The notes beneath the pieces are model-generated. The model saw only the letters and a program-made list of their open reading frames with translations. It did no database searches and was not told the origin of the DNA. The position numbers were made by a program, and so were the translations under genes. A DNA stretch of 60,537 nt, from assembly GCA_012032555.1 (NCBI GenBank), contig JAAUSR010000026.1:1-60537 (forward strand), written 5' to 3'. Positions 21,701 to 59,439 of the stretch are shown one piece after another. This DNA comes from Thioploca sp. (lineage in GTDB: Bacteria; Pseudomonadota; Gammaproteobacteria; Beggiatoales; Beggiatoaceae). The stretch's first letter is position 1. Every line of letters begins with the position of its first letter.

Positions 21701-24700
21701 CCTAAATGCTATCAAAATCATGGGGAACAATTGGAATTCTTCATGAGTGAGAATTACAGTTGTGATGCTGAATTTGAACACCAACCGCCGGTATTAACTT
21801 TAGTTATCGTTGGTAATGGACAAATACTGACTTCACCAACGAGTTACTCAATTCCTTGCGAAACCGGTCAGTGTTCCCAGTTTGCGATTGATACTGAAGT
21901 GACTTTAACACCTCAAGCCGGTAATGGGTTTCATTTTGACAAGTGGTCTGGTGATCCGGATTGTCAAGCCGGTCAAGTGAAAATGGATAGTGATAAAACC
22001 TGCGTAGCAACCTTTAGCGATACGCCACTGGTTCAGTTAATCCTCTCTTATGATCACAACCAAGGTCAAATTGAGATCATACCGACCGGTGAAGATTGCG
22101 GAGAGAATTGTCAGCGTTACTACAGTGGTACACCGGTTACGTTGACAGTTCAACCTCAACCCGGATTTCAATTAGCCGGTTGGACTGGTAATTGTGGTAA
22201 TCAAATGCAAACCACTTTGGGAATGACTTTAGATAAAGATTTTCATTGTGGAGTTAATTTTACAACGGTATCATCTACTAGCCCATCTCCGCCGGCTTTA
22301 TCAACTTTAATCATTACCTTAGCTGGCAATGAACTGGGTACCGTTACAAGTATACCGCCGGGGATTAACTGCGGTATAGATTGCATGGAAAGTTATCAGA
22401 CCGGAACGAGGGTAACCCTGATTGCAACACCCACTTCCAGTTCTACGGTGGTCAACTGGAGTGACTCTTGTTTATCCGGTCAAGTTTCTGTAGAAGCCAA
22501 TAAAACTTGTGAAGTAACCTTTGAATCGACTCCAGAAAAAATACTTTCATCGAGCACCATACAATTGGCTATGCCCCAGTATCAAATCAATGAAAATGGT
22601 CAAGGGAAAGTACCGGTACTGGTGACTCGCTCTGGCAGTGAAGTTGGAACAGTCCATGTTAGCTTTACCACAGTTAATGGTACTGCACTCGCTAATAGCG
22701 ATTATACGCCGCTTAGCGGCGAGTTAACTTGGTTAAATGGCGATACCACCCCGAAGACAATTACCGTGCCGATTTTACCAGACAATTTAAATGAGGGCTC
22801 TGAAACTTTTGTTATCCAGTTATCTAACTTAACTGGGGAGGCACAGTTTGGTACTTATTCTCAAACCCGGGTTACCATTGTAGACGCACCTCAGGCAAGC
22901 AACTCAGTGTCTACTGCACCAACAGAATCGACCGGTAATGACAATGTCTTACCTTCACCTTATCTTCCGCCAGCAACGTCAGCGGGTCGGATCCAATTTG
23001 GAGTACCGGTATATGAAGTTATGGAACAAGAAGCACTTTATCCACTGGAAGGATTTATCAAGATTCCTGTGTTTCGTTTAGAAGGTAGTCAAGGAGAAGT
23101 GGCTATTAACTACATGACTCAAGATGAAACCGCCATAGCCGGTAAATATTATCAGCAAAGTAAAGGTCAAATCGTGTGGGCTGACGGCGAAATCGGTGAA
23201 AAAGAAATTATAGTTGATGATTGGGATAATAAATTACCGGAAGAAGCTAGAAGCTTTCGGTTAATGTTGTCTAATCCGACCAATGGTGCAATACTTGGAG
23301 AATATCCTGATATCACCGTATTGATTAAAGACGATGAGGGTAGTGTGGTGGGATTTTCACCTCACAATACTTATTTAGCCTTTGAAGAGAATCAGCAAGC
23401 CCAAATCACAGTTAGCCGCTCAAATAGTCGTTTAGGTGAGGTAACGCTTCGCTATACTACAATCGATGGCACGGCTAAAGCGGGTGAAAATTACGTGGCA
23501 ACGAGCGGTACCTTGACGTGGGGTGATGGTGAATCCCAAGAACAAACCATTCATATTCCGTTACTATCCAGTCTCAATAAAGTCGGTAATAAAACTTTCC
23601 AATTAAGCTTATTTGAACCGACTGGTCAGGTCACCTTAGCGACCCCAAGTACCGTATCAGTGACTATAATGACCAGTCAACCTAATCTTTGTGAGATAAT
23701 TAACAATATCGTTAATTGTTTAATTATTCGGGAGAAAGACTCACCCATTTTAGAGAATATCCACATTACCTCCCGAGGTGCACTGATAGGCAGCCGCTTA
23801 GCTGGACAAATCCACAATGCCGGCTGGTTACAAAATACCTTACTCCTGCCCAATACAACCGTGACGGGTGGATATATCAGTGGTAGTCTCAGTGGTCAAC
23901 CGGAGCAACCGGTAACGACTTTGCTTCGTCAGGTCGAAGTAATTGCTGGAACGAACCTCAAATATGTCGGGATTGGTGAAGGTACCCAAGTTAATGACCA
24001 AACTCATTTAGGTGAAGGCGTCTGTTTTGAAGCCAATGATCTGATCCCTAATCAAAATCTCTCCAACCTATTAGGTCATACTGAACAAACGGTGTTAGGA
24101 CAATCGGCAGTGAAACTCAAGCGGGATGTGCTTTGTCAAAGTGCCATCGATGGATTATTAGGCGCTATCAATGACTTACCGCAACTTAAAAACGTCGGTT
24201 GGGAATTAACCCAAGATCCGAGCACCGGATTGCTTAACTTAGCCATGGAAAATCTTCATTTTGCGACACTACCACTGCAAGTTGAACAGGTTTTAACGGA
24301 AGAAATGGTTGACGAATTGCCTTTAGGAATAACCTTTCCTGCCAGTGGTCAAGTTATTTTTTACACTCACACCGGCAGAAAAATCATTACTTATCCCGTT
24401 ATCCAAGCTCCGCTTGCTCTCCAAGCTCAGTTGCACCAATTAGGATTAAATACAGTTAACTTGTTAGCTAATGGTAATATCGAAGTACCTTTAGCGAATG
24501 GCTCGTACTTTGTTGCTCGTGCTGATTTAGTAGCTAAGCGAGTTTCTCCAGAAAGACCAATTGGGTTAAATTACACCACTAGACCGATATCCTTAGTTTT
24601 TGCTGATGAAACGGGTAACCCTTGGCAACAAATGCTTTATCCTGTTGCCGCTTATCCAGAGGAATTGGATAAGTTAGCTGCTTCTTCACCGTCAACAACC

Positions 24701-24916
24701 CGGTTAACATCTACCGGACAAATAAAGATACATTATAAAGGCTATTGGTATGAAGGAACACTTGATTATCTCGTGACTCCCAACCAGCAATCTAAAGCAA
24801 GTGATTTGCAATGGATCAATACAGATGACCTCAATGGTGACGGTTGTAATGATAGTTGGATTTATTACTCTACTGGAGAAAAGCAAGCATTGTTGAAAGT
24901 TTGTCCTAGACGTTAA
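18779..24916 (+). CDS. giant secreted repeat protein (beta-helix, seven InlB-type repeats, three Calx-beta, bactofilin-like, novel C-terminal module)
   Basis: A 2045-aa exported protein. The start at 18779 follows GGAGGAA; a TTG at 18758 lacks one. A hydrophobic segment (FILVLSILLWFSTS) acts as the signal. In order: a CSLREA-like segment (TLREAISAA) and right-handed beta-helix with NGG/GGGIYN repeats (about 45-390); a beta region with Calx-beta-like traits (400-545); an SbsA-type Ig domain (about 555-660); seven divergent InlB-type repeats with conserved CG..C..YSSG and TGWSGT (661-1247); three Calx-beta domains (about 1260-1370, 1400-1515, 1525-1630); a bactofilin-like helix (1640-1740); and a C-terminal module ending DLNGDGCND. 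It is probably a surface adhesin or matrix protein. It has no LPXTG. Confidence 0.8.
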   Translation: MRLLGEDTIHDHFVIKTDQLMLSNLNSWLRFILVLSILLWFSTSDVAAITVDTSLDDLTTNDNCTLREAISAAETTSNVDGCVYDNNIIDFDSRLAGRTINLTSTLTISKSLDIKAQNIIVNGGNNKQVFNIGSNIVVTIEGITITGGSSAGGGGISNQGDLTIINSTLRNNQSNTRGGAIYNANSGTLKLDKSLVYSNTTSGTASGGGIYNEGNMTIRNSTISSNATSSNNGGGIYNNGNLTISSSTITNNKALPTNNKQGGGISNATSGTVTVKNSIIAGNIAQVGSQDCRGTITSAGYNLMGKGCTPLTGTDIDFILPPTNGIIDNVFYSSTTPSGGVHLLKATTSNPTVNAIPNNVNDCGITLTQDQLGTPRPYPSPDATPVNNCDIGAYEIAPIIYHQIEVNPNAKEENFAGEKAFVITRYGGAINCATDIDYLVTGTATYDTDYQISLLRGTSIDTISGFFNLVGQDIGILKTTISPDNDPENDENIVVTLSNPRLSSNVSSECQNILNFFGGTSALQFLLSDSSPFDNISDTFTIVNDEIDNIAPSINSITITDPNPHTLSDVVNGITIEFSETVINFDLSELTLTRDSTAIPLTSAQTLTTSDGGKTWVLGNLTTLTATNGDYQLTVIPGDITDLAGNLLSSDKNIIWQKSLPTFSLTVTKSGSGNGTITVNGIDCGATCTNSYSSGTSINLTVTPDSHSIFTGWSGTDCSSSVTINADMTCTATFDPKPPPGTVALTILKTGTGGGTVSINGSACGNPCSQTYPMGSVITLTATPDTNSVFTGWSGTNCGSSVTINADMTCTAIFNSKPTSPSTTILTITKAGMGNGTISGSGINCGNTCSYTYSQGTAVTLTATPDGNSTFTGWSGTHCGSTFTITTSINCTATFAKKVADTLPTPPLPQTMTLTLSRQGSGQGEFEFSQNPQQTTCDDLETAQCTYQFPTATWVTVTAKVDSHSTFKGWRGLNPKCYQNHGEQLEFFMSENYSCDAEFEHQPPVLTLVIVGNGQILTSPTSYSIPCETGQCSQFAIDTEVTLTPQAGNGFHFDKWSGDPDCQAGQVKMDSDKTCVATFSDTPLVQLILSYDHNQGQIEIIPTGEDCGENCQRYYSGTPVTLTVQPQPGFQLAGWTGNCGNQMQTTLGMTLDKDFHCGVNFTTVSSTSPSPPALSTLIITLAGNELGTVTSIPPGINCGIDCMESYQTGTRVTLIATPTSSSTVVNWSDSCLSGQVSVEANKTCEVTFESTPEKILSSSTIQLAMPQYQINENGQGKVPVLVTRSGSEVGTVHVSFTTVNGTALANSDYTPLSGELTWLNGDTTPKTITVPILPDNLNEGSETFVIQLSNLTGEAQFGTYSQTRVTIVDAPQASNSVSTAPTESTGNDNVLPSPYLPPATSAGRIQFGVPVYEVMEQEALYPLEGFIKIPVFRLEGSQGEVAINYMTQDETAIAGKYYQQSKGQIVWADGEIGEKEIIVDDWDNKLPEEARSFRLMLSNPTNGAILGEYPDITVLIKDDEGSVVGFSPHNTYLAFEENQQAQITVSRSNSRLGEVTLRYTTIDGTAKAGENYVATSGTLTWGDGESQEQTIHIPLLSSLNKVGNKTFQLSLFEPTGQVTLATPSTVSVTIMTSQPNLCEIINNIVNCLIIREKDSPILENIHITSRGALIGSRLAGQIHNAGWLQNTLLLPNTTVTGGYISGSLSGQPEQPVTTLLRQVEVIAGTNLKYVGIGEGTQVNDQTHLGEGVCFEANDLIPNQNLSNLLGHTEQTVLGQSAVKLKRDVLCQSAIDGLLGAINDLPQLKNVGWELTQDPSTGLLNLAMENLHFATLPLQVEQVLTEEMVDELPLGITFPASGQVIFYTHTGRKIITYPVIQAPLALQAQLHQLGLNTVNLLANGNIEVPLANGSYFVARADLVAKRVSPERPIGLNYTTRPISLVFADETGNPWQQMLYPVAAYPEELDKLAASSPSTTRLTSTGQIKIHYKGYWYEGTLDYLVTPNQQSKASDLQWINTDDLNGDGCNDSWIYYSTGEKQALLKVCPRR

Positions 24917-24930
24917 TTGAGAGTGGATTG

Positions 24931-24961
24931 AGGTTGGGTTTCGCTTCACTCTACCCAACCT
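24931..24961 (+). terminator. stem-loop after the giant surface protein gene
   Basis: AGGTTGGGT and ACCCAACCT pair exactly with a 13-base loop, 15 bases after the stop at 24916. A related but different hairpin (GGCTGGGTT/AACCCAGCC) lies at 25164-25190. No U-tract is obvious, so these may be repeated palindromic elements as well as terminators. Confidence 0.5.
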
Positions 24962-24967
24962 ACGCAC

Positions 24968-25120
24968 CACTGCTATTAAGTTAAGAAAAATTTCTCCCCT
25001 CCTTGAGAAGAAGGTGCCGGGGGGTGGTTAAAAAAGTTGATTTTATTCAATTTCTTAGTCACACCCCCTCACCCCCTCCTTGGTAAGGAGGGGGGAATTC
25101 GGCTTAACTTAATGGCATTG
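24968..25120. mobile_element. probable MITE, 153 bp, with 18-bp terminal inverted repeats and an 11-bp direct repeat
   Basis: The left end CACTGCTATTAAGTTAAG and the right end, read on the opposite strand as CAATGCCATTAAGTTAAG, match in 16 of 18 bases. AACCTACGCAC stands on both sides, at 24957-24967 and 25121-25131, as a target-site duplication would. Inside there is no ORF, only short inverted, G/C-run motifs. The same terminal sequence occurs at 59500, 60136 and 60267 beside transposase remnants, so this is likely a nonautonomous element of that IS family. Confidence 0.7.
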
Positions 25121-25147
25121 AACCTACGCACTACGCACTTGTTATCA

Positions 25148-25198
25148 AGCACGAGCACGAGTAGGCTGGGTTGAGGAACGAAACCCAGCCGACGTGCT
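25148..25198 (-). terminator. stem-loop after the sortase-system histidine kinase gene
   Basis: GGCTGGGTT (25164-25172) pairs with AACCCAGCC (25182-25190). The outer bases AGCACG/CGTGCT extend the stem. It lies just past the 3' end of the minus-strand kinase gene (25219) and probably terminates it. It differs from the hairpin at 24931-24961. Confidence 0.5.
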
Positions 25199-25218
25199 AT
25201 TAAAAAAATAACCTCAGG

Positions 25219-27336
25219 TTAATTAGCCAGAACCATTTCAGTGGATCGAATAGGTAATATTACGGTAAACAGAGCCCCTGCTCCTTCTGGATTGTTATCA
25301 GCACGAACTTGTCCACCATGATAACCAACGATGAGACGTACCATATATAAACCGAGTCCCAGATGAGGTTCTCTTTTTCCCATACTTTGGGGACGTAAAG
25401 AAATCATCGACTCAAATAAACGTTCTGGCATTTCTGCTGGTAAAGTTTGACCGCGATTGAGAATATCGAGATGCGCTTGTTTACCCTCAGAAAACAATTT
25501 TACTTTTATGGGTACCTGTGGTTCAGAAAAGTCTACTGCATTAGAAACGAGTTTGTCGAGCATTTGAGCAATTAAGTCAGGCGCACCTTCTAAAGTAAGC
25601 GGTGTTGAGCTAATTTCCGCTTGAAAATCTTGCTCCGGATAAGCTAAGCGATATCCTTCAACACAGCTACTCACTAATTCTGTTAAATCAAATACTTCGC
25701 GTTCGACTGTTTGTAAAGCTTGTTCCAAGCGAGTGGCTTCACTTAAACGGGTAATAATCGTATTAAGACGAGCAATTCCTTGTTTAGCGCGTTCAATATA
25801 GATATGCGATTCCCTAGCGGTACCGGTTTGTTCAAATTCTTGTTCAAGGTTTTCTAATGAGGAACGCACGACTGCTATTGGGGTACGTAGTTCATGGGAT
25901 AAACGACTAGCCATTCCTTCTAAGTAAGTATTGTATTGACTTAGTTTTTCTAAAATAAGAGAAAAACTTCGTGACAAGTCACCAATTTCATCTTTGGAAA
26001 AGAAGCCAATTTTGGTAGTTGTCACGCGCCCATTGATATCAATAGCGGTTTCAGCTTGATTACGCAACGAACGTAGACGGACTGATAATCGAGTCGCAAA
26101 AGCGAGTAGCAGTACTGTTATAATTGAAAAAACAATTAAGGTTTTATTAAAGAGATTAGCAATTGCTTGGCGTTGTACCGATTGGATCCGGTTACTGGTT
26201 TCTTCCACGACTACTGCACCAATCACTTGGCGTTGATTCCAAACGGGATGCGCTGCAGAAACAATGACCGCTTGCCCATCTAAAGTAGAACGCCAACGGG
26301 TTCGTGCCTTACCTTCTAAAGCACTATTCACTTCTTCACCTTCCAGGCGAGAAGCTCGGGCGAGATCATCTTTGAAATCTTCTGAGACCGGTGGCAGTAA
26401 TAAACTGTATAAGGCATTAAGTGGATGATGCGCAATTTCCCGTTGCAATTCACCACTGGTTGCCAAAACACGTCGTTGTTTATCTAACACCCAAACACGA
26501 CGTCCCGGCGTATCACTTAATGAGCGAATAATACGCTCAATTTCGGGTGAAGGGATAAATACTTTACCTACTGTTTCCAAGTTTTGAATAGCAGAAGTAC
26601 CTATCACTGTTTTAATTTGGTGAGAAGGACCATCCACATCGGCGATAGCGAAACCCAAACGATCACCTATTTTTGATAAGGGAATTCGTAGTTCCAATAG
26701 GTAACCGGTAGAGGTTTCTTGCCACATTCCTTGAATACGCGTTTCAGGTTGCGCTTGTACATAGGAACCACGGGTTGACACTTTATAAGCACTGACCCAA
26801 CCTGGTGCTTGTGGTGCAATGATATAACGATAAAATTGTCGATTAGGATCTTGCATAACGATCTGTAGATGGTCACTACGATCCAAATGTAAACTAGAAG
26901 CACTACGATACACACGTTTATCATCATGAACAATAAATAGGGCATACAGGTGATTGCGATATTTACCTAAAATATGTTTAAAAGAAAGTGAAGTTGGTGA
27001 ATAAGTTCCACTATTTTTAAGAATGTGTTTCTCAGCATAATCGCCAGCTTGTTCTAAATACTCAGTCCAATCGTCAATATTCCCGTCTAATTTAATCGGT
27101 GTGTTAAAAACATGGGCATTAAGTCCTTCTTCTCGCACGATATCAACTAATTTACGACTAAATAAAGCCGGACGATCATTTAAAACATTAGCCAGAGCAC
27201 GCGCAGTATCCTCTAATGAGGTTTCAAGATTATCACGTAGATATTTTTCCATTTCTCGGACATATTCATAACCGACATAGGGAATACTAAAGAGAGTTAA
27301 TGAGAGTAATAAGACTTTGCTTCGAATCGTTAACAT
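25219..27336 (-). CDS. sensor histidine kinase of the proteobacterial dedicated sortase system
   Basis: A 705-aa kinase, the length of the family dedicated to class GN sortase systems. It has an N-terminal membrane segment (VLLLSLTLFSIPYVGY), a large periplasmic region (about 20-390), a second membrane segment (TLIVFSIITVLLLAFATRLSV, about 395-415), a HAMP linker, HisKA with the phospho-accepting His in SRLSHELRTPIAVVRSS, and HATPase_c with NAVDFS (N box) and HLGLGLYMVRLIVGYHGG (G box). It lies downstream of its response regulator on the minus strand (110-bp gap), back to back with the sortase. It presumably phosphorylates that regulator. The start codon overlaps a 13-bp tandem palindrome. 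Confidence 0.88.
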   Translation of the reverse strand: MLTIRSKVLLLSLTLFSIPYVGYEYVREMEKYLRDNLETSLEDTARALANVLNDRPALFSRKLVDIVREEGLNAHVFNTPIKLDGNIDDWTEYLEQAGDYAEKHILKNSGTYSPTSLSFKHILGKYRNHLYALFIVHDDKRVYRSASSLHLDRSDHLQIVMQDPNRQFYRYIIAPQAPGWVSAYKVSTRGSYVQAQPETRIQGMWQETSTGYLLELRIPLSKIGDRLGFAIADVDGPSHQIKTVIGTSAIQNLETVGKVFIPSPEIERIIRSLSDTPGRRVWVLDKQRRVLATSGELQREIAHHPLNALYSLLLPPVSEDFKDDLARASRLEGEEVNSALEGKARTRWRSTLDGQAVIVSAAHPVWNQRQVIGAVVVEETSNRIQSVQRQAIANLFNKTLIVFSIITVLLLAFATRLSVRLRSLRNQAETAIDINGRVTTTKIGFFSKDEIGDLSRSFSLILEKLSQYNTYLEGMASRLSHELRTPIAVVRSSLENLEQEFEQTGTARESHIYIERAKQGIARLNTIITRLSEATRLEQALQTVEREVFDLTELVSSCVEGYRLAYPEQDFQAEISSTPLTLEGAPDLIAQMLDKLVSNAVDFSEPQVPIKVKLFSEGKQAHLDILNRGQTLPAEMPERLFESMISLRPQSMGKREPHLGLGLYMVRLIVGYHGGQVRADNNPEGAGALFTVILPIRSTEMVLAN

Positions 27337-27356
27337 GGTGTTATAACATGGTGTTA
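27331..27356. repeat. tandem 13-bp palindrome at the histidine kinase start
   Basis: TAACATGGTGTTA occurs twice in direct tandem (27331-27343 and 27344-27356). Each unit is itself palindromic (TAACA/TGTTA around TGG). The kinase start codon lies inside the first copy (27334-27336). It may be an operator or a recent duplication; the ATG in the second copy is followed by a stop. Confidence 0.6.
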
Positions 27357-27446
27357 TCAGTGTTTTTCAGTTAACCGCTATTAGAGATCAATTTTTGTTA
27401 TGATTTATTCTTTATTTAATAATGGGTTAACCTTGATTGATCACTG

Positions 27447-28157
27447 TTAACTGTTAACTATATCAATGTTCCACCGATAACCCATTCCATAAACAGTTTC
27501 AATGGCCGCAAATTTAGGATCAATATGTGCAAATTTTTTACGAATTCGCTTAATATGTGAGGTAATAGTACTATCGTCTACCAAAACATTAGCTTCCTGC
27601 ATTAATTGTTCCCGATGTTTAACATGTCCCGGAAAACGGGCTAAAGCATGCACAATCCAAAATTCGGTTAGAGTTAAATCAACAGCCATACCATGCCAAG
27701 TGGCTGTTAAGCGATAACTATCTATTAGTAAGGAACCTCTGGTTATGACATTTTCAGCCGACGGGGGAGTACGAAGCGCTTCTATCCGGCGAAATAAAGC
27801 GGCTATCCTGGCCAAGAGATGAGGCATACTGATATCTTTAGTTAAATAATCATCTGCTCCTAAACGCAAGCCAGAGACAGTATCAAATTCACTATCACGT
27901 GCGGTTAAAAAAATAATGGGTAAATAATGCGATAATGTGCGCAAGTCTCGACACAAATCAAATCCACCTTCCACTTCATCTTCAAGACCGATATCTAACA
28001 AAACGAGCTCCGGTAAGCGGATATGGAAAGCTTGCATTGCTTCCGCACGGTTAGTATAAGTATTAACTTCATACCCTTGACGACGTAGCACCGCCGCATA
28101 ATTTTCTCGAATAGCCGGTTCATCTTCAACAATTGCAATACGACGACCCATCACCAT
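27447..28157 (-). CDS. response regulator of the proteobacterial dedicated sortase system
   Basis: A 236-aa OmpR/PhoB-type regulator. The receiver domain (about 1-125) has the acidic pair EDEP, phospho-acceptor Asp in LVLLDIGLEDEVEGGFD, a TARD switch segment and LTKD (Lys switch). The C-terminal winged helix (about 140-235) has LTLTEFWIVHAL and the recognition-helix region DSTITSHIKRIRKKFA, then VYGMGYRW. AAGGGG precedes the ATG. It probably forms an operon with the kinase and may control the divergently placed sortase. Downstream targets are unknown. Confidence 0.9.
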   Translation of the reverse strand: MVMGRRIAIVEDEPAIRENYAAVLRRQGYEVNTYTNRAEAMQAFHIRLPELVLLDIGLEDEVEGGFDLCRDLRTLSHYLPIIFLTARDSEFDTVSGLRLGADDYLTKDISMPHLLARIAALFRRIEALRTPPSAENVITRGSLLIDSYRLTATWHGMAVDLTLTEFWIVHALARFPGHVKHREQLMQEANVLVDDSTITSHIKRIRKKFAHIDPKFAAIETVYGMGYRWNIDIVNS

Positions 28158-28582
28158 TATCCCCTTAATAAAAAGCCAAACGAGCTAAAACAGATTATAA
28201 TATGCGATTAGACACTAACAGCGTCAATTCCATTTTTTTGCCATATTTTGCCTTGGTATTGTCAGAACAGGTTCTTACAATAAGTTAAATATGAGACGAC
28301 AATATTAGTTTAGCTTTAATATGTCAACATGCTCATATTGATACGGAAAAAAGATCAGTTGATACGATATTAACAAAAGGTTGCTTATTGGTTTTTCACC
28401 ATAAGTGATTGTCATATTAAATTGATATTGATCCCCAGTTAGTGTTATTAATTAAAATTTGATGTGATACTGAGTTGGGTTACCAATCTGTACTCATCAG
28501 TATAGATATTGGCAAGACTCTTGCCCAAGCAAGTTTACATTAATTGATATTGAAATGAATTTTTGATATATGGGAGTTATCT
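28158..28582. promoter_or_regulatory. divergent intergenic region between the response regulator and the sortase operon
   Basis: A 425-bp AT-rich gap without an ORF, shared by the minus-strand regulator/kinase genes and the plus-strand microprotein/sortase genes. It must contain both promoters. Several TGATA- and GATAT-type repeats (TTGATACGG, GTTGATACGATATTAAC, TTGATATTGAT) are visible around 28330-28440 and could be regulator-binding sites. No clear -35/-10 box can be assigned. Divergent sortase and two-component genes suggest control of one by the other, but this is not proven. Confidence 0.4.
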
Positions 28583-28753
28583 ATGAATACGGTTAAGCCA
28601 AATACACCCTCTTCAATATTAAGCAACTTGCTTAATTTATTAGGTGTCAGTTTATTGGCTTCGGCTGGGGTTTCCGTAATACTGGTAGGGATTGTACTTT
28701 TACTATCATTGCAAGTTAACAACAGATCTATTTGTTTGGTAGTGACTCTATGA
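28583..28753 (+). CDS. 56-aa single-pass membrane microprotein upstream of the sortase
   Basis: A small ORF starting MNTVKPNTPSSILSNLLN, with one hydrophobic stretch (LLGVSLLASAGVSVILVG) and a short polar tail (LQVNNRSICLVVTL). A GGGAG ribosome-binding site sits seven bases before the ATG. Its TGA overlaps the sortase start as ATGA, so the two are likely translationally coupled. In class GN sortase systems this position usually holds the VIT/VWA target protein. This ORF might be a reduced substrate, an assembly partner or a regulator. I do not recognise the family, and the function is unknown. Confidence 0.65.
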   Translation: MNTVKPNTPSSILSNLLNLLGVSLLASAGVSVILVGIVLLLSLQVNNRSICLVVTL

Positions 28754-29331
28754 AAACACAATTGAGATGGGGCTACTTAGCTCTCGTAATTGTCGTGACG
28801 ATGACAGCATGGCAATTTAGTCAGGGTAATGTAGTATACGCTCAAGCATGGTTAGCACAAGGGTTACTTCACACGGCTTGGGTACGTACTCAAGCCAGTG
28901 GTCGGCAAGTTAAACCATGGCCTTGGGCAAGAACGTGGCCATTGGCTCTTTTATCTGTGCCACGCATTAATACAGAACAGATTATTCTGTCACATGCCGG
29001 TGAAGGGATATCACCTTTTGCATTGCGGCATGCAGAAAACAGTGTATTACCTGGTGAAATTGGTAACAGTGTACTTAATGTCCATCGTGGTAATTATTTT
29101 AGCTTTTTAAGAATGTTAAAACCCGGTGATATGATTATTCTTGAATCGCTACGTAATGGACGTTGGTATTATCAAATTTCGGCTATTTATATTGTTTATA
29201 AAACCGATACTTCGTTGATTGAACCTAGTTTAAATCGACGTTTAACTTTAATTAGTTGTTATCCATGTACAATTGAAGATGATCGACGCTATGTCGTCGT
29301 GGCTGAAGAAGTAAAAAGAATAACTTCCTAA
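28750..29331 (+). CDS. class GN sortase
   Basis: A 193-aa sortase of the proteobacterial class GN. Membrane anchor MKTQLRWGYLALVIVV is near the N-terminus. The catalytic His is in LNVHRGNYF, the catalytic Cys in LISCYPC and the assisting Arg in DDRRYVVVAEE. It transpeptidates a surface protein at a sorting motif, on the periplasmic side. The start is the ATG at 28750, which overlaps the microprotein stop; an in-frame TTG at 28732 is less likely. The usual companion target gene is missing from the window. Confidence 0.9.
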   Translation: MKTQLRWGYLALVIVVTMTAWQFSQGNVVYAQAWLAQGLLHTAWVRTQASGRQVKPWPWARTWPLALLSVPRINTEQIILSHAGEGISPFALRHAENSVLPGEIGNSVLNVHRGNYFSFLRMLKPGDMIILESLRNGRWYYQISAIYIVYKTDTSLIEPSLNRRLTLISCYPCTIEDDRRYVVVAEEVKRITS

Positions 29332-29352
29332 AGGAAGTAAAATGAAACGGCT

Positions 29353-30636: not shown

Positions 30637-30812
30637 ATGATTTAACTAAAATCTTTCGTTTGAGCAATGAAATAAAAATTAGAAATATTTAAAGCTGTAA
30701 AATATTAACTTTGTTGCTATACTAATTTTTGGTGTTGTAACCGTTTATTGTTGAATTAGAAAACGATGAGATAATCAACTTATAGCCTACTTATTTTCCA
30801 AGGAGAAAAACC

Positions 30813-32270: not shown

Positions 32271-32304
32271 GCGAGTTAATAACCGATTGCTAACTCAACA
32301 CCGG

Positions 32305-45024: not shown

Positions 45025-45033
45025 TAAATATCG

Positions 45034-48792: not shown

Positions 48793-48840
48793 CTACCTCT
48801 AAATGATTGCTGGTTTAGCACCTAGGTTGACATTGGGTTC

Positions 48841-49095: not shown

Positions 49096-49506
49096 ATTAA
49101 TGTCTCCTTCTGGTTTTCAAGAAATGAAATTATTCGCAATTAATTTGCTTTGATAATCTTTAAAAAAGATAAAGGATATAAGATAGGGTAATTTTATAAT
49201 ATTTCAATTCTACCGACTAGCTTGCTTAAGCAAATGTAACTTCACCACTATCAATTTAAATAGCTATCGATAACATGACCATTGGGCTTTACAACACATC
49301 ATCTGCATTGGTTGGAAACAATATCCGGATTGCATCACCGAACATCAACGAGTTGGGTGGGATAACGGCTACCGAGAAGGACTCCTCAAGCTGGCAGTCC
49401 GAGCAAGGTAGCGTGATTGCCCGGCTATAAAATACTTGCTCATACCAGCTAACTACAATACAATTCAAAATTAAAGAATTATCTTCTATTTCGGAGGAAA
49501 TCAATT
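49096..49506. other. 411-bp intergenic region with a GC-richer segment
   Basis: Between FmdB-like (minus) and transglutaminase-like (plus) genes. It holds the palindrome TTGCTTAAGCAA (49222-49233). From about 49275 to 49430 the base composition rises and a 52-codon plus-strand frame (MTIGLYNTSSALVGNN...) opens, and a minus-strand frame opens too. Neither has a ribosome-binding site or a known match, so I do not call either a gene. Confidence 0.4.
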
Positions 49507-50241: not shown

Positions 50242-50257
50242 TTGGATTGATTTTGGT

Positions 50258-50277
50258 GTCGGCAAATGGTTGCCGAC
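50258..50277 (+). terminator. terminator hairpin after the transglutaminase-like gene
   Basis: GTCGGCAA and TTGCCGAC pair perfectly around a 4-base loop, 17 bases after the stop at 50241. A compact intrinsic-terminator candidate. Confidence 0.55.
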
Positions 50278-50372
50278 CTCGGTTTATTGTTGAACCCCAG
50301 TGAATATAATCAAAAAGCAAAATATCTTATCATATTGAATTTATAATCAATAGCTTATTAAACTAATTCCAG

Positions 50373-50390
50373 TTGGCAATCCTTTGCCAA
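50373..50390 (-). terminator. hairpin at the 3' end of the secreted repeat protein
   Basis: TTGGCAA and TTGCCAA pair around a 4-base loop just before the 3' end of the minus-strand gene (50404). It shares the GGCAA/TTGCC core with the hairpin at 50258-50277. Confidence 0.5.
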
Positions 50391-50403
50391 CATGAGAATG
50401 GAT

Positions 50404-51642: not shown

Positions 51643-52126
51643 GATTTTTCTCCTAAAATTTAGGGTTTTAATATCACGTTAACAATTTAATAAATAGGTA
51701 ATAAACTCAGAAAAAGCAAGTAGGATGTAGTAATTTTTCTAGGTTGGCTTAAAGTGAAACTTTACTTGGTAAGTTTAGCGTTGATCTTAATTAAATTAAG
51801 GAAAACTTTTCCGCTCTCACCGGGAGAGATCCCCCTTGGAAAATCAACCCTTACCAATGCAACCAAAAATCAGTTTATCACCTCTCAACTTATTCCTGAA
51901 TATAAATTAAGATTAACAGCATTTGTCATTATTTCATATAGTAATATATAAATTAACATTATGAAACAATTAATTATAAAAGATAGTTTTATAGTATATT
52001 AATAAACTATCATAATACCTTGAAAATTTAGTATTATAAAAATAATGTCAGAATTATTTTATCGGTCTATACTATTTATAATTTGACGCATAAGCGTTAC
52101 ATCGATATTTGTAAGGAGATTTAGGT
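51643..52126. other. 484-bp divergent intergenic region
   Basis: It separates the minus-strand secreted repeat protein from the giant DUF11 gene, and holds both promoters. A plus-strand frame at 51754-51951 (GTG start, no ribosome-binding site) is not called. The remainder is AT-rich with no recognisable site; the last 12 bases before 52127 contain AAGGAGAT, the giant gene's ribosome-binding site. Confidence 0.5.
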
Positions 52127-54343
52127 ATGACATTGTTTACCTCTCGCATTGAGGTTTATTGGAGCATTCGGTACACCAACTTCAAAGGCATTTTAGGATT
52201 ATTTCTGCTGCTAAGCAATTTGCTTCCAGTCGCGTGGAGTGAAGAATCAACTCCCATTAACTTGACCTTAATTGATACCAAAATAAATAATTCTGATAAT
52301 GTTACTGGACTTAACCAAGTTAATTCAGTCGCTATGAGTTCTGATGGTAGACACCTTTATACGACTAGTTTCGATGGTGTTGTAACTGTTTTTAGTCGTG
52401 ATAATGGTAGTGGTAAATTATCATGGGTTCAAACAATCAATAATAGTGATTTAGATAATAATGGCTTGAACGGTGCCAGTGCGGTACTGGTTAGTCCTGA
52501 TAATAAACATGTTTATGTGGCTAGCTTTTTTGACAATGCGGTTGTCGTATTTACACGAGATCAGACCACGGGTAAATTAACATTAGTCGAAATTCAACAA
52601 GATGGCAGTAGTGGCGGGGATGGTTTAGCGGGTGCTAATGCTTTAGCTATGAGTGCTGATAATTCACGTCTTTATGTGACGGCTGCTAATGATAATGCGC
52701 TAACAGTATTTGCCAGAAATGTAAATAGCGGTGGCTTAACTTTTCTGAATAAGCAACAACAAGGTTTGAGTACACCAACACATGTCGCGGTAAGTCGAGA
52801 TAATATTTTTATTTATGTTACCAATAGTAATTCGGTTAGCCGTTTTACTCGTAACCCCAATCAAGGTGAAATCGCTTATGTCGATACTTTAGGTAGCGGG
52901 GTTGATGGTGTTGCGGATCTCAATGGTGCTCAAAGTATAACGATTAGTCCTGATAATAATCAAGCTTATATAGTGAGTAGTGATAATAGTGCTCTACTAG
53001 CTTTTAATAAGGATGTCAGTGGTCAACTCGCTTTTTTACAAACTTATCGAAATGGTGATAGTGGGATCAATGGATTAGGTGGAGCAAGTGCTGTTGTGGT
53101 TAGTCCAGATGGTCGTTTGGTTTATGTAGCTGGTATGAATAATAAAGCGATTGCCATATTCAATCGTGATGCAACTACCGGTTTACTGAGTTTCAACAAT
53201 CTCGTCCAGAATAGCAGTAGTTTAGATGGTGTTAAAGCGGTAATAATCAGTCCAGATGGCAATCATATTTATGCTGCCGCAACTTCTAGCAAGGCAATTA
53301 GTGCATTTACGACCAAGTCGACTGATTTAGAAATTACCTTAACCACCTCTGCAAAAGTACCTATCAATAGTCCTTTAACTTACAGCATTACAGTCAATAA
53401 TAAAGGTAGTGAACCCGCAACTGGTATCACCTTAGTTGATACTTTGCCCACTGGTGTTACCTTTGCGCCGGCACAGTCGAACCCAGGTTGTAGCTACGAT
53501 ACTAATACTAATCAAGTGACTTGTTCATTAGGAGAACTACAACCTAATATAACCGCTTCGGCTCTGGTAACGGTAATAACGCCGGCAACGGTTACCATGA
53601 GTACCCTAACCAATCAAGTCACCGTAACGGCTAATCAAGCGGATAGCAATTTAGCTAACAATACGGCTGAAAAAAGTACCCAATTATCTGAAACCGTCTC
53701 TAAAGTTGATTTAAAAGCAGAGATTTCAACTAATTTAGAAACGGCTAGTATTAATAGTGCGCTAATTTATACGGTTACGGTCACTAATCAAGGAGCCGAT
53801 TTGGCTAATAATGTGGTATTAACTAGTACCTTACCAACCGATGTGATTTATGACATTGTTGAAAGTGATTCGCGTTGTATCAATAATACCGGCACTGTCA
53901 CTTGCCAATTAGGTACCCTGACGATCAATCAACCTAATTCAGTGCTTATTTATGTTACCACACCTCAAACCATAGGAACAGTTACTTTTACTGCTGAAGT
54001 AAAAAGCGACGATTTTGATCCAACACCAACTAATAATATGGCGAGTAAGTCAATCAATGTTGACAATCTTCAATTCGATTTGGAGATTATCGATGCAGTA
54101 GCAAACCCTTTTACTGGTATTGATATTAATAGTGAGATAATCTATACCGCAACTATCAATAACAATGGTCCAACTCAAGCCAGTGGAGTTATTTTAACCA
54201 CCACTTTGCCGTCGTCAGTGGAATATATTTCTAGCACCCCTAATTGTGGCGATGATGTTGAAGGGCAAGTAACTTGTTTTCTCGGTAATTTAAATGCCGT
54301 GGTAATCAAAAAGTTGAGCTTAAAGCTAAGGCTGTTCAAGTAG
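52127..54343 (+). CDS. giant secreted propeller/DUF11 protein, 5' part of the frameshifted gene
   Basis: The 5' part of one gene of about 2437 aa continuing to 59439. Strong ribosome-binding site (AAGGAGAT) and a signal segment (GILGLFLLLSNLLPVAWS). Residues about 45-395 form a seven-bladed beta-propeller of the YVTN/lactonase kind (repeated SVAMSSDGRHLYTT, VLVSPDNKHVYVAS, VVVSPDGRLVYVAG). Three DUF11 domains follow (about 400-520, 525-645, 650-738), e.g. VPINSPLTYSITVNNKGSEP, LPTGVTF. The frame ends early after CFLGNLNAVV; the correct continuation is in the next frame at about 54296-54303, where one base is missing. Confidence 0.88.
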   Translation: MTLFTSRIEVYWSIRYTNFKGILGLFLLLSNLLPVAWSEESTPINLTLIDTKINNSDNVTGLNQVNSVAMSSDGRHLYTTSFDGVVTVFSRDNGSGKLSWVQTINNSDLDNNGLNGASAVLVSPDNKHVYVASFFDNAVVVFTRDQTTGKLTLVEIQQDGSSGGDGLAGANALAMSADNSRLYVTAANDNALTVFARNVNSGGLTFLNKQQQGLSTPTHVAVSRDNIFIYVTNSNSVSRFTRNPNQGEIAYVDTLGSGVDGVADLNGAQSITISPDNNQAYIVSSDNSALLAFNKDVSGQLAFLQTYRNGDSGINGLGGASAVVVSPDGRLVYVAGMNNKAIAIFNRDATTGLLSFNNLVQNSSSLDGVKAVIISPDGNHIYAAATSSKAISAFTTKSTDLEITLTTSAKVPINSPLTYSITVNNKGSEPATGITLVDTLPTGVTFAPAQSNPGCSYDTNTNQVTCSLGELQPNITASALVTVITPATVTMSTLTNQVTVTANQADSNLANNTAEKSTQLSETVSKVDLKAEISTNLETASINSALIYTVTVTNQGADLANNVVLTSTLPTDVIYDIVESDSRCINNTGTVTCQLGTLTINQPNSVLIYVTTPQTIGTVTFTAEVKSDDFDPTPTNNMASKSINVDNLQFDLEIIDAVANPFTGIDINSEIIYTATINNNGPTQASGVILTTTLPSSVEYISSTPNCGDDVEGQVTCFLGNLNAVVIKKLSLKLRLFK

Positions 54344-57300
54344 GAACCAATATTTCTAATAAGTTCGAGGTCAAGGCGAGTGGTATCGATACCAATGATA
54401 ACAATAATTCTAAAGAAGTAACTCTAGGTAGCATTATAGGTAAAACCACTGATTTAAGTGTTACTGTAAATGATGGTAGTAAAACCGTATTAGTAGGTAG
54501 TCCGGTCACCTATACGATAACGGTTGCTAATAACGGAAATACCGATAATTCAGCTGATCTCGACGTCAATTTAACTGGTAAAAATCTCACCATTGGAAAG
54601 ATCAGCGGTGATAACTGTGGCACCGGTTTGAGTTTCACTTGTCAATTAACGGTTCCAGCCGGGAAAGATAACCAGATCACGGTTGAGGTCACACCCAATG
54701 AATTAGGCAATATCACTTTAACTGCTAAAGCCAAAAACAATAATGATATCTTTGACCCCAACCCATCAAATAACACCGTCACTAAAGAAACTGCCGTTTC
54801 TGACAAACAAATTGATTTAGGTGTGACATTAGAGGCTGTGCCTAATCCAGCTTTCTTAGCCAAAAATTTTACCTATACTATTACCGTTACTAATACGGAT
54901 GCGAACAACCAAGCCACTGAAGTCACCGTAACACAGGAATTACCGCCCGGGGTAACTTTTGTGTCTGCTACGACAACTCAAGGTCAGTGCACTCAAGCGA
55001 ATAACCTCGTGACTTGTCCACTTGGACCAGTCGATCCGAACGGGAATGCTAAAATCTTGACCGAAGTGACACCGCAATCCACCGGTAAATTAAAAAGTAC
55101 GGTTACTGTCAACAGTGCGGTTTTTGATCCACAACCGACTAATGATACCGCGAGTATTGAAGTAGAAGTGGGTCAATTTAAAGCGGACCTGGCTTTAAGT
55201 ATCGCTGATACCCCAGATCCAGCTACTATTAATGATCCGCTTACTTATACTTTCACTGTCACGAATAATGGTCCGGATCCGGTAACCAATATCGAATTAG
55301 TGAATACTTTACCTCAAAGTGTTACGCTTAAAACGCCTGCCCAATTAACTCCCGCAGAGGTTGGTGGTAATTGTCTTGATATGAATGCCGCCAGAGAAAT
55401 TCATTGTATAATTCCTACTTTACCCAATCAAGGCACCGCTACGATGACTTTAGTGGTTACACCTACCGTGTTAGGTGAATTAACTCACATCGCTTACGTC
55501 AAAGGTAAAGAATTTGATGACAATGAAGAAAACAACAAAATCACTGCTATAACTCAGATTAACAACTCCACGACCCTATTTTTAATTGAAACTAAAAAGA
55601 ATGAAGAGGCTGGCATCCAAGGCTTGGAAGGAGTAAATGCCCTTACCGTAAGTCCAGATGGTCAATATGTTTATGCCGCTAGTTTTACTAACAATGCCTT
55701 AGTTGTTTTTCAACGTCAAGAAAGCGATGGACGCCTCAAATTTTTCCAAGTCATTCAAGATGATTCTAATGATGTTGATGGTTTAGCCAATGCAAGTAGT
55801 GTTAGCGTCAGTCCTGATAATGCTTTTGTTTATGTGACTGGTTTTAGTGATACCGCGGTAGCGGTGTTCAGTCGAGATGCGGTGAGTGGCGTATTAAATT
55901 TTGTTGAAGTTCATAAAAATGGTGTTGCTGGTGTACAAGGTTTAGGGGGCGCCTTTGCAATTCTAGCTACGACTAAGCAAGTTTATGTTGCTGGAAGTAG
56001 TGATGATGCTATTGCCATCTTCAATCGAGATTCCAAAACTGGCAAACTAAGCTTCCAAGAAGCGATTAGCTTTGCTGATGTTTCGCAAAATTTAGATGCG
56101 GTTAATGCGTTAGCCGTCAGTCCCGATGGCTCATATTTATTTGCCGCTAGCCTCAATAGTAATCGTTTATCCGTATTTCGGCGTGATCCGGATAGTGGAG
56201 CACTGAGTTTAATTCAAACACTTACCAACAACTTGGCTGGTGTACAAGGCTTAGAACAAGCGAGTGGAGTTATTGTCAGTCCCGATGGTAAACAAATTTA
56301 TACGATTGGTAAAGGCAACGATAATGCTGTCGCTGTTTTCCAACAAGATCCGCAAACGGGTGTGCTGGGTTTTGTGGAAGTTCATCGCAATGGTATAGAA
56401 GGCGTAACCGGGCTCAATGGTGCGGAAGATTTAGCAATTAGCCCGCGTGGTGATTATGTTTATGTGGTCAGCAGCACTGAGAATGCCATAGCGGCCTTTC
56501 GCCGGGATTTAACCACTGGACGACTCACTTTTGTCGATAGACGAATTGATGGTATTGATGGCGTAGACGGATTAGCAAGTGCTCGTGCGGTTGCAGTCAG
56601 TCCTTCAGGTGCTCATATTTATGTCGCTGGTTTTGGAGATAATGCTATTGCGGTTCTGAGTGTGGCCACCGCCGATTTGAATCTCGTGATGAGTGATGGT
56701 GAAGATCCGGTCAATATTGGTGATAACGTCGCTTATATTTTAACTTTAACTAATGATGGTCCTCATCCAGCAACTGGAATCGTTCTAACAGAACAACTCC
56801 CAGAAAATCTTAATTTAATGTCATCAAGCCCCAGTCAGGGTCAATGTTTAACTGCCGAAAAGCAGTTACAATGTAGTTTAGGCAGCTTAAAAGTGGGTAG
56901 CAAACTGACCCTATCACTCGTAGTAGCTGTCGCTGAACCCGGTGAATTAAGTCAAACCGTGACGGTCACGGCGAATGAGTTTGATCCGACTCCAGTAACC
57001 GTTACTGAAACCACTCAAGTCACGGCAAAAGCGGATTTATGGATCAATATTGATGTCACACCAACTATCGCTCGGATTCAAATGCCGGTAACTTATAGCA
57101 TAACCATTACTAATGATGGACCCCACCCGGCAAAAGACATCGCTGTTCAAACTGAAATTCCTAATGGCGTACAATTTAACTCAGCACAACTTAGCCCAGA
57201 GTCAACGCCTTGTGATTTTGATATTGATAAACGTACGGTTAATTGTACTCTCACTGAGCTAGCTACTGGGGCAAATCGGATAGTAATTTTGATGGTTACC

Positions 57301-59439
57301 CCCACCCAAGAAGGCGCGACGCTCGAAAACACAGCCACGGTAAATGCTTCAACCTTTGATCCTAATTTACTGAATAACACCGCCAAACAGGCGATGGAGG
57401 TTTTAGTCAATATTATCGAGGAAACCTATGATAATAATGGGAAAAAGTTAGAAAATTATATTATTGGCCCAACTGGTGCGGTGATTGGTGGTTCTATTGC
57501 GGGTACGATTGATAACCAAGGTTTGATATCCAACGCTTGGATTTTACCGAATACCATCATCAGCGGTGGTAAATTATCTAAAATGATTACCAATGAAGGT
57601 ATCATTGAAAACGTACAATTACTGAGCGGCACTACCATCAATGGTGGAATTTTACGTGGTACGATTACTGGGTTTCCAACTGATCCGGCTATTATTAATA
57701 CGCAAATTGCCGCAAACGCTCAATTGAGTCATGTTATTATTGGAAGCAATAGCCAAGTTGATCCCCAAGTAAAACTTGGTGAAGGGGTTGCGTTTAAATC
57801 CAGCGCTAATATTCCAGAAGGAATTGATTTAACTTCACTTTTTCCGTTTATTATTGAACCCATTACCCAGAGTAAAGCGATTAACTTAGCCATGGATGTG
57901 GTTGTTGGTGAAGGCTTAACTTTACTAGCTGCCATCAATACTATCCCCGAACTGCGAGAAAATGATTTAACCTTTTCCCAATCGTTAACAATGGGTTATT
58001 TATCATTATCTTTGGCTGATGCTGAGCAAATGATATTAATCCCGCTACGCATTTCACAAATGGCTGCGACAACTCCACCCCAGATGACAACGCATTCTGA
58101 TGGAAGTGTCAGTTTTGTCGTTCAGGGTGGACGACTTATTTTAGCTTACCCAGCACCACAAAGTCCTACTGACTTACAGACTGTCTTAGAAAATCTTGGC
58201 TTAAATCAAGTTCAAGCTGAAGCGGATGGCAATTTAACTATTTTTGCCCAAAATCACTTCCAAACGCGTCCAGATTTACATACCCAGCAAATTAGTCCGT
58301 TACTACCATTGGGCTTAGAAGCCACACCTTCACCACTAGTACAAGGTTTAAGCCTATTTGTCCTAAGATTTGTTGATACCGAGAATAAACGCCGGCAACA
58401 ATTTTTTTATCCGACTCCTGCTCATCAAGCAGAATTGTATCAGGCATTACAAGGCTTTCCGGGTGCCACTACTGTGGAATTTTATAATACAGGTAAAGTT
58501 TCAGTCAAAATTGGGGCACGTACTTATTCTGGCGTATTTGACTACCAAGTCAAAACCGGAAACACGAATACCGTGACGCAATTACTACCGGTACCCGATA
58601 AAAATGGCGATGGTAGTGAAGACATCCGCGTGATTTATGCGAATGGCGATCAACAACTTGTTTATCTTTTACCTTTCCCAGAGATTGCTGAAGAAATTCA
58701 AGCCATTCCTGCGGTTCAAGCAGCAGACTATGTCGTATCTCAAGATATTCAGGGTAACTTACTCTTAATTCAAGGTAATAATCATTTGTTAATGACCACG
58801 ACGAATCTGAAACAACTAGATAAAGCAATCCCGGCTCAAATGAAGATTAATTCAGACGGCAGTGCTGAATTTATTACTAATTTTGGATTACAAGCTTTGA
58901 CTCAACCGGTTGTGCAAGAAATGACCACTCTAAAAAATGCGGTACGTGGTCTAGGGATAACAACTGTCATCACCGAACCGAATGGTAACCTCAGCTTACC
59001 AGTAACGACAACTCGCAGCTTTAACGCACGTCCAGCACTGAAATCAACACCGACGTGGTTAGCCATGCCGCTGGGATTAAATACAGTACCAACTTCTTTA
59101 CCGGGTGTATTAACCACCATGCTAGTTTTTAGAGATGAAACGGGTACTAAACGCCAACAATTGATTTATCCTGCCGCGAAATATCCGGATAATCTTTATC
59201 AATTCTTCGCTCGTCAACCCTCGGTTGAAACGGTTACTTTCGATAATGACGGTACTGTATTAGTCAAGGGTGGTAGCTTTAATTTACATGGCATATTTGA
59301 TTACGTCGTGACTAACACGGGTACACCAACCGGCGGTATTCAATTTAGTTCTACCAAAGATGTTAATGGTGATGGTATTGCTGATTTTGCAGTTGTTTAT
59401 GCCAATGGGGAAAAGCAAGTGATTTATCAACTGCCATAA
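54301..59439 (+). CDS. giant secreted propeller/DUF11 protein, 3' part (second propeller, DUF11 domains, bactofilin-like region, novel C-terminal module twice)
   Basis: The rest of the giant gene. In order from 54301: the remaining DUF11 domains (e.g. 54470-54790, 54800-55170, 55180-55560); a second YVTN-type propeller (about 55590-56670); two more DUF11 domains (56680-57020, 57030-57400); a bactofilin-like beta-helix (57410-57800, IIGPTGAVIGGSIAGTIDNQ); and two tandem C-terminal modules (about 57880-58670 and 58690-59436), each ending in a calcium-type loop (PDKNGDGSEDI, DVNGDGIAD) and a YANG-E/D-QxxY tail. The 'propeller plus DUF11' block occurs twice. No LPXTG. In-frame TTG at 54628 is not the real start. 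It is probably a surface or matrix protein. Confidence 0.85.
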   Translation, partial: GNQKVELKAKAVQVGTNISNKFEVKASGIDTNDNNNSKEVTLGSIIGKTTDLSVTVNDGSKTVLVGSPVTYTITVANNGNTDNSADLDVNLTGKNLTIGKISGDNCGTGLSFTCQLTVPAGKDNQITVEVTPNELGNITLTAKAKNNNDIFDPNPSNNTVTKETAVSDKQIDLGVTLEAVPNPAFLAKNFTYTITVTNTDANNQATEVTVTQELPPGVTFVSATTTQGQCTQANNLVTCPLGPVDPNGNAKILTEVTPQSTGKLKSTVTVNSAVFDPQPTNDTASIEVEVGQFKADLALSIADTPDPATINDPLTYTFTVTNNGPDPVTNIELVNTLPQSVTLKTPAQLTPAEVGGNCLDMNAAREIHCIIPTLPNQGTATMTLVVTPTVLGELTHIAYVKGKEFDDNEENNKITAITQINNSTTLFLIETKKNEEAGIQGLEGVNALTVSPDGQYVYAASFTNNALVVFQRQESDGRLKFFQVIQDDSNDVDGLANASSVSVSPDNAFVYVTGFSDTAVAVFSRDAVSGVLNFVEVHKNGVAGVQGLGGAFAILATTKQVYVAGSSDDAIAIFNRDSKTGKLSFQEAISFADVSQNLDAVNALAVSPDGSYLFAASLNSNRLSVFRRDPDSGALSLIQTLTNNLAGVQGLEQASGVIVSPDGKQIYTIGKGNDNAVAVFQQDPQTGVLGFVEVHRNGIEGVTGLNGAEDLAISPRGDYVYVVSSTENAIAAFRRDLTTGRLTFVDRRIDGIDGVDGLASARAVAVSPSGAHIYVAGFGDNAIAVLSVATADLNLVMSDGEDPVNIGDNVAYILTLTNDGPHPATGIVLTEQLPENLNLMSSSPSQGQCLTAEKQLQCSLGSLKVGSKLTLSLVVAVAEPGELSQTVTVTANEFDPTPVTVTETTQVTAKADLWINIDVTPTIARIQMPVTYSITITNDGPHPAKDIAVQTEIPNGVQFNSAQLSPESTPCDFDIDKRTVNCTLTELATGANRIVILMVTPTQEGATLENTATVNASTFDPNLLNNTAKQAMEVLVNIIEETYDNNGKKLENYIIGPTGAVIGGSIAGTIDNQGLISNAWILPNTIISGGKLSKMITNEGIIENVQLLSGTTINGGILRGTITGFPTDPAIINTQIAANAQLSHVIIGSNSQVDPQVKLGEGVAFKSSANIPEGIDLTSLFPFIIEPITQSKAINLAMDVVVGEGLTLLAAINTIPELRENDLTFSQSLTMGYLSLSLADAEQMILIPLRISQMAATTPPQMTTHSDGSVSFVVQGGRLILAYPAPQSPTDLQTVLENLGLNQVQAEADGNLTIFAQNHFQTRPDLHTQQISPLLPLGLEATPSPLVQGLSLFVLRFVDTENKRRQQFFYPTPAHQAELYQALQGFPGATTVEFYNTGKVSVKIGARTYSGVFDYQVKTGNTNTVTQLLPVPDKNGDGSEDIRVIYANGDQQLVYLLPFPEIAEEIQAIPAVQAADYVVSQDIQGNLLLIQGNNHLLMTTTNLKQLDKAIPAQMKINSDGSAEFITNFGLQALTQPVVQEMTTLKNAVRGLGITTVITEPNGNLSLPVTTTRSFNARPALKSTPTWLAMPLGLNTVPTSLPGVLTTMLVFRDETGTKRQQLIYPAAKYPDNLYQFFARQPSVETVTFDNDGTVLVKGGSFNLHGIFDYVVTNTGTPTGGIQFSSTKDVNGDGIADFAVVYANGEKQVIYQLP

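Follow-up and report, generated by a model that had tools for sequence, protein, structure and literature searches.

A C-terminal domain shared by giant exported proteins of Beggiatoaceae: a candidate lineage-specific module for surface targeting or attachment

Two giant proteins encoded in the window (the whole 60,537-nucleotide stretch of Thioploca sp. DNA that was analysed) end in the same domain of about 260 residues, here called the core, which stands singly at the end of giant A and as a tandem double at the end of giant B. We favour, with moderate confidence, the interpretation that the core is a lineage-specific C-terminal surface-targeting or attachment module of Beggiatoaceae. In the giant sulfur bacteria (Beggiatoa, Thioploca, Thiomargarita and their relatives), this tail is carried by many very large exported proteins, and, judging from its sequence context, it probably delivers them to the cell surface or fastens them there. 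To our knowledge, sheath building, gliding, sticking in mats and carriage of epibionts by Beggiatoa, Thioploca and Thiomargarita are little explained at the protein level. The core, which reaches 23 matches in a single genome (pieces and tandem copies counted), marks a large set of exported giants at once. The main features are the following.

18779..24916, + strand: giant A, 2045 aa, with a Sec-like signal, InlB-like (Flg_new_2) and Calx-beta repeats, and a C-terminal beta-helix and core
52127..54343, + strand: giant B, first piece, 738 aa, with a Sec-like signal, a Lactonase-type beta-propeller and DUF11 repeats
54289..59439, + strand: giant B, second piece, 1716 codons open, with DUF11, propeller, DUF11, beta-helix and two cores
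54289..54343, + strand: overlap of the open frames of giant B and site of the frame break, from the ORF list and translations, the orthologue being intact
23681..24106, + strand: beta-helix (bactofilin/hexapeptide-like) and linker before the core of giant A, with AlphaFold2 strands at residues 14-94 of a 411-residue model
57397..57876, + strand: beta-helix before the first core of giant B, from the translation and helix profile matches, with an approximate start set by eye
24107..24913, + strand: core copy 1, 269 aa, directly before the stop codon of giant A
57877..58668, + strand: core copy 2, first of the tandem pair of giant B, from pairwise alignment
58681..59436, + strand: core copy 3, second of the tandem pair and followed by the stop codon, from pairwise alignment

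The homology of the three copies, which the original prediction had proposed, is borne out by pairwise local alignment far above chance. The scores were 295, 276 and 316, with Z values of 48.0, 42.4 and 47.7, when 300 shuffles for each pair gave means of 35-37, standard deviations of 5.4-5.9 and maxima of 56-67. All the short motifs that had been quoted for these regions are present in the translations. The beta-helix parts preceding copies 1 and 2 can also be aligned (Z 21.2). Thus, the proposed order of a beta-helix followed by the core stands for copies 1 and 2 and fails for copy 3, which follows directly after copy 2 and has no helix of its own. The reading of 52127-59439 as one protein has to be amended as well, as a stop codon ends the frame 52127-54343 and the remainder lies in another one, 54289-59439. 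In the other genome of the genus (G001), the orthologue of giant B is a single ORF of 2436 codons that matches the two pieces with 81% and 88% identity, the matches overlapping at orthologue residues 721-734. Since this orthologue is intact, the split of giant B is a frame break, and on the sequences at hand either a sequencing error or a real mutation is possible. The break falls within a DUF11 repeat. A second core protein of the window's genome (G000, contig C175, L022 4415-7177 and 7177-8616) is also apparently split, its counterpart in G001 being one ORF of 1398 aa. On the minus strand of the window, two overlapping ORFs of 246 and 760 aa at 12713-15663 look by eye like one protein split by a frame break, which we take, also by eye, to be a glycoside hydrolase of the family 31 type.

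The position of the core at the end of the protein is its most constant property. In 98 of 98 distinct ORFs, the core ends 1-17 residues before the stop codon; this set comprises ORFs covering at least 150 of the 268 core positions with a stop codon in view, from a sample of the matches that included the best ones of many genomes and then others further down. Ninety-seven of them extend to the last positions of the model, and the remaining one looks broken. The other end of these proteins is consistent with export. A Sec-like signal, here meaning small residues after a hydrophobic stretch in roughly the first 60 positions, was recognised by a simple hydropathy scan in all 20 readable N-termini (20 of 21 rows, the last being cut by the end of the locus), although one of them (L080) has no basic residue just ahead of the hydrophobic stretch. 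There is little sign of a terminal membrane helix, with a hydrophobic 19-mer above 1.6 within the last 300 aa in 5 of the 98 ORFs.

BLAST searches of 57 genomes found the core in 30, every one of them belonging to the 36 Beggiatoaceae (the window's own genome included), and in none of the 21 from other families of the class. With a profile, 36 of 42 Beggiatoaceae genomes were positive at E <= 0.01, one of them (G017) being counted on a weak match of 8e-11. These 42 genomes represent 25 genera, and 25 is also the number of genera given for GTDB Beggiatoaceae in PMC11172852. The 17 core loci with names belong to Candidatus Parabeggiatoa, Thiomargarita, Thioploca, Candidatus Marithrix, 'Thiotrichaceae bacterium' and one 'Gammaproteobacteria bacterium'. 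The family genomes without the core (G012, G029, G023, G034, G031 and G062) come from three genera, and two of these genomes are incomplete (59% for G034, 52% for G062). Among 369 genomes drawn from the class, with the best six candidates at most scored per genome, clear matches appeared in four family members and in G257, i.e., in 1 of 365 genomes outside the family. A draw of 398 genomes from the phylum, which overlaps the class draw, gave the window's own genome alone at E <= 1e-6 and none of the 397 others. A match in G134 (E 5e-4) was discarded as due to chance, as it comes from proteins that have an NGDG motif and a PEP-CTERM-like tail. The protein of G257, a genome of another family of the class, has 438 aa (L153 7392-8705), with a signal-like start and WAENxGWI-type repeats, and it ends in a full core (E 7.8e-42) that stops 1 residue from the stop codon behind a different N-terminal half; this core was possibly acquired by lateral transfer. 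On the genomes compared, we consider the core to be lineage-specific to Beggiatoaceae.

The domain family appears to be undescribed, in agreement with the original suggestion of an unnamed family. Pfam and NCBIfam scans of the window proteins gave no family match to the core; below threshold, Hexapep matched the beta-helix, and FG-GAP and XAC2610_fam the last ~25 residues of the core. When 20 core members were scanned singly against Pfam and NCBIfam, the matches were weak (best E 4e-4) and pointed to no common named family. The three copies gave one match in PHROGs, with an E of 0.04, and no viral or plasmid copy of the core was found. No description of the domain was encountered in the titles and abstract openings of the literature searched. 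A core profile would annotate the unnamed tails of many exported giants in the giant sulfur bacteria.

Structure prediction gives a confident fold for core copy 1. The AlphaFold2 model of beta-helix plus core has a mean pLDDT of 88.8 and a pTM of 0.85, and that of the core alone 85.6 and 0.83. After the beta-helix, the core is predicted as three alpha/beta repeats of ~82 residues, each formed by a helix and then five strands, the helices spanning residues 158-170, 244-253 and 326-335 in the 411-residue model. The units and the closing loop were assigned as follows.

24152..24409, + strand: repeat unit 1 of core copy 1, from AlphaFold2 secondary structure (helix, five strands), with no repeat signal at the sequence level
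24410..24655, + strand: repeat unit 2 of core copy 1, from AlphaFold2 and hhalign against unit 3
24656..24913, + strand: repeat unit 3 of core copy 1, from AlphaFold2 and hhalign; also found alone in a few other Beggiatoaceae proteins
24827..24853, + strand: calcium-binding-like closing loop, D-x-N-x-D-G-x-x-D, from motif conservation in 116 copies

Comparison of profiles with hhalign relates units 2 and 3 (E 2e-4), their score of 25.7 standing above the highest value of 40 column shuffles, 18.3. Unit 1 scored 14.1 and 12.9 against the others, inside the range of the shuffles, and was not recognised as a repeat at the sequence level. Thus, the threefold repeat comes from structure prediction and only partly from sequence. 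Among 116 core copies, Q175 and Q260 are invariant, and the closing loop columns D241, N243, D245 and D249 are kept in 96, 96, 91 and 90%, the exact D-x-N-x-D-G-x-x-D motif being present in 79. From this pattern of residues we infer that the loop may bind calcium. Foldseek found nothing among solved structures at E <= 0.001, either for the model of helix plus core or for that of the core alone. With VIA-align, the beta-helix part reached Z values up to 5.8, with tailspikes first, and the core alone a best Z of 3.9 spanning 38 residues. Likewise, the core sequence profile reached E <= 0.001 among PDB chains for designed 'Cake' propellers alone, over 25 residues of one hairpin. The lack of a convincing structural match for the core does not demonstrate a new fold.

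Shorter versions of the domain also exist. In the window's genome, L144 1498-2991 and L145 1135-2004 contain units 2-3, again at the very end. Unit 3 occurs alone in four further ORFs, near the end in L150 and L149 (5 and 28 residues), with 111 residues after it in L152 and at an internal position in L151. Moreover, three Marithrix loci have an internal partial core besides the terminal one. Because of these internal and single-unit occurrences, a strict end-signal is not the whole story.

The proteins preceding the core are diverse. In Pfam and NCBIfam searches, the passenger of giant A matched Calx-beta in 3 stretches and Flg_new_2 in 7, and that of giant B matched DUF11 and a Lactonase-type propeller. 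The wider set confirms that unlike N-terminal halves share the tail, with passengers of Calx-beta/InlB-like, DUF11/beta-propeller and unnamed types. Two adjacent cores are present in 26 of the 98 ORFs, 25 of them with DUF11-like sequence upstream (the exception is L120). Tandem cores thus go with DUF11/propeller passengers (25/26), and single cores with Calx-beta (32/32); the other single-core ORFs comprise 20 with neither Calx-beta nor DUF11, 1 with DUF11 and 19 with too little upstream sequence. In a FastTree phylogeny built from 116 copies, the second tandem copies group in a single clade (21/21 of those included, local support 0.997, a further 5 being too short for inclusion) and the first ones in another, with 25 of 26 plus one single copy (support 0.918). 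These separate clades indicate that the duplication probably predates the spread of the family and that both copies were retained. The tandem pair is therefore, as far as the sequences tell, probably an old, family-wide feature of DUF11/propeller proteins and not a peculiarity of giant B.

This history bears on the idea that the core is a structural cap and folding nucleus, which would close the open end of the beta-helix and aid folding or protease resistance without addressing the protein anywhere. The beta-helix profile lies directly upstream of the core in 82 of the 98 ORFs, as a cap would require, and a calcium-loop-like motif suits extracellular stabilisation. Yet 16 ORFs (some of them from truncated loci) show no helix immediately upstream, and the second core of the tandem pairs, which has no helix of its own and which a cap would not need, has long been kept (21/21 in one clade). 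We consider this explanation improbable.

Selection on the core was estimated from orthologues in G000 and G001. The identity of the cores is 82-93% and their dN/dS 0.076-0.254, which indicates purifying selection. The two tandem copies have similar values of 0.076 and 0.091; as both are kept and similarly constrained, both are probably functional. The core is more identical than the rest of the passenger in 5/5 orthologue pairs and has the lower dN/dS in 4/5 (the exception being 0.209 against 0.200), two of these pairs offering little comparable passenger (273 and 64 columns). The beta-helix is conserved about as much as the core, and this, like the one pair with the higher dN/dS, speaks against a surface-targeting module. 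The identity values weigh against another reading, in which the core would be the business end of the protein, a distal adhesive or ligand-binding head held off by the beta-helix and passenger, with the N-terminal side at the cell. A rigid stalk with a compact head is a common adhesin layout, which these proteins would fit, and the internal and single-unit occurrences of the core together with its weakly FG-GAP-like closing loop would be natural for such a head. However, heads of this kind often diversify, whereas here the core exceeds the passenger in identity in every pair, and no N-terminal anchor was seen besides the signal-like stretch. We think that a head of this type is unlikely.

We now return to the surface-targeting or attachment module, which has in its favour the terminal position, the Sec-like signals, the unlike passengers, the purifying selection on the core, its confident predicted fold and the scarcity of terminal membrane helices. 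We envisage that the precursor would be exported to the periplasm via Sec, and that the core would fold there or outside the cell, probably with calcium in the DxNxDGxxD loop, which might stabilise the last unit. The folded core would then be recognised by, or stick to, a common partner at the outer surface encoded elsewhere in the genome; candidates are an outer-membrane export or attachment machine, or an LPS or sheath polymer. The long passenger would thereby be displayed outward, with the beta-helix as a putative rigid stalk between passenger and core. A more specific version, possible in our opinion but doubtful, would make the core an address tag for an as yet undescribed system of outer-surface export or attachment in Beggiatoaceae. 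A dedicated partner would read the folded, calcium-bound C-terminal domain of three or six repeats, and these filamentous or giant cells would thereby display very large adhesive proteins as a coat.

The surroundings of the core genes provide no obvious partner. Among the gene neighbours of 22 core loci (proteins of at least 1400 aa left out), no transporter or outer-membrane gene is recurrent. Core proteins aside, the commonest neighbour cluster occurs at 4 loci, made up of the first piece of giant B and genes from three Marithrix loci, two of them overlapping on a single contig, and the next commonest at 3. The combination of many core genes per genome with no recurrent neighbour is what one would expect of clients that share one machine or surface. 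The role of anchor, assembly or export signal that had been proposed is thus consistent with the terminal position, the restriction to one lineage and the unlike N-termini, while the transporter or outer-membrane gene that might have accompanied it is not recurrently adjacent; the role is deduced from position. Position alone is unable to separate a surface module from an adhesive head, a cap or the tag of a known machine. With 6 of 42 Beggiatoaceae genomes lacking the core, two of them only 52% and 59% complete, a partner can be sought by phyletic profiling.

The last of these alternatives, that the core tags substrates for a known machine (two-partner TpsB/ShlB transporter, neighbouring class GN sortase or T9SS), seems to us quite improbable, even if the two-partner system gave the closest co-distribution found, which is a reason not to dismiss it. 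Its TPS domain has matches in 35 of 42 family genomes, being absent from the six core-less ones and from G006, so that it agrees with the core in 41/42. ShlB/TpsB was found at E <= 1e-10 in 33/42 genomes, namely 33/36 with the core and 0/6 without it, the core-bearing genomes that lack it being G006, G008 and G057. Nevertheless, G006, which is 99% complete, has 3 core matches but, at the limits applied, no match to either the TPS domain or ShlB. None of the core proteins scanned, including giant A and both pieces of giant B, matched the TPS domain (PF05860), and ShlB has substrates of its own with this domain. No core gene lies in 15 ShlB neighbourhoods from 14 genomes (~6 kb on each side where the contig allowed); in G009, one core is located ~20 kb from ShlB on the same contig. 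Moreover, the genomes without the core fall into three genera and include two incomplete ones, so a shared loss of surface proteins explains much of the concordance. For these reasons, we do not prefer the two-partner route. Genomes with ShlB have 1-2 matches to it and 1-39 to the TPS domain, many of the latter on other contigs, and from these counts the two-partner system in Beggiatoaceae looks like a many-to-one system.

The sortase owes its candidacy to its place beside giant A. The block at 25219-29331 comprises genes for a dedicated kinase (TIGR03785, 754 bits) and regulator (TIGR03787, 391 bits), both over the cut-off, and a diverged class GN sortase-like gene (28732-29328) whose 122 bits fall below the cut-off of 158; a subtilisin is encoded nearby. 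Sortase matches occur in 30/42 family genomes, none over the cut-off, and they are absent from 9/36 genomes with the core and present in 3/6 without it. In G001, the block is kept at 96, 95 and 96% identity, and it lies at 2.92 Mb, with the cores listed at 0.30-0.79 Mb. Giants A and B have no match to the sortase-target model marine_srt_targ (TIGR03788) and no LPXTG-like tail; the best match to this model in the genome is another gene (G000:C5:70075-71841), with 541.7 bits against a cut-off of 551.65. As distribution and synteny disagree and a likely target is encoded elsewhere, the sortase was set aside as a partner, and its adjacency to giant A looks coincidental.

Other export routes were also considered. 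T9SS was rejected as the machine, as no NCBIfam match to its CTD model was obtained in the window proteins or in 20 members (E up to 1), and SprA (TIGR04189) was found in 1 of 42 family genomes (G030, with 5% contamination, and perhaps a contaminant) and is absent from G000. The secretin TIGR02517 is present in 41/42 genomes; it is therefore uninformative and was discarded. No Pfam match to type Va autotransporters was obtained in the window proteins or 20 members, and the predicted core has helices and short strands. For type I (RTX) substrates, which have no Sec signal, the window proteins gave no RTX Pfam match, and the 20 readable N-termini of core proteins look Sec-like in the hydropathy scan.

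Comparison with known systems helps to place the core. The T9SS CTD of Bacteroidota is a conserved end domain on many unlike Sec-exported proteins, whose genes are unlinked to the machine, and it consists of one beta-sandwich of ~80 aa. The core resembles it as a terminal domain on unlike Sec-type proteins of one lineage, and is a candidate for working in a similar way; it differs in its length of ~260 aa, in its three alpha/beta repeats, in the lack of a CTD match and in the absence of SprA from the window's genome. LPXTG, PEP-CTERM and GlyGly-CTERM are described in PMC3237569 as many-to-one C-terminal signals that go together with an N-terminal signal peptide. The core shares this C-terminal logic and the N-terminal signal, but it is a folded domain of ~260 aa instead of a short tail of motif, helix and basic residues; no NCBIfam match to these tails was obtained, and the combination of motif, membrane helix and basic cluster is not found at the end. 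With bactofilins and hexapeptide proteins, the likeness lies in the repeated short strands forming a beta-helix ahead of the core, and it is one of shape only: there is no bactofilin Pfam match up to E 10 in the window proteins or E 1 in 20 members, Hexapep stays below threshold, and core proteins are of the exported type, whereas bactofilins are cytoplasmic. With FG-GAP and EF-hand-like calcium loops, and with XAC2610_fam (NF047539), the core has in common the D-x-N-x-D-G-x-x-D loop followed by a strand, although the FG-GAP and XAC2610_fam matches are below threshold and cover only the last ~25 residues. Thus, while it is filed under no tested system, the core may, by analogy, work like a C-terminal sorting or attachment domain.
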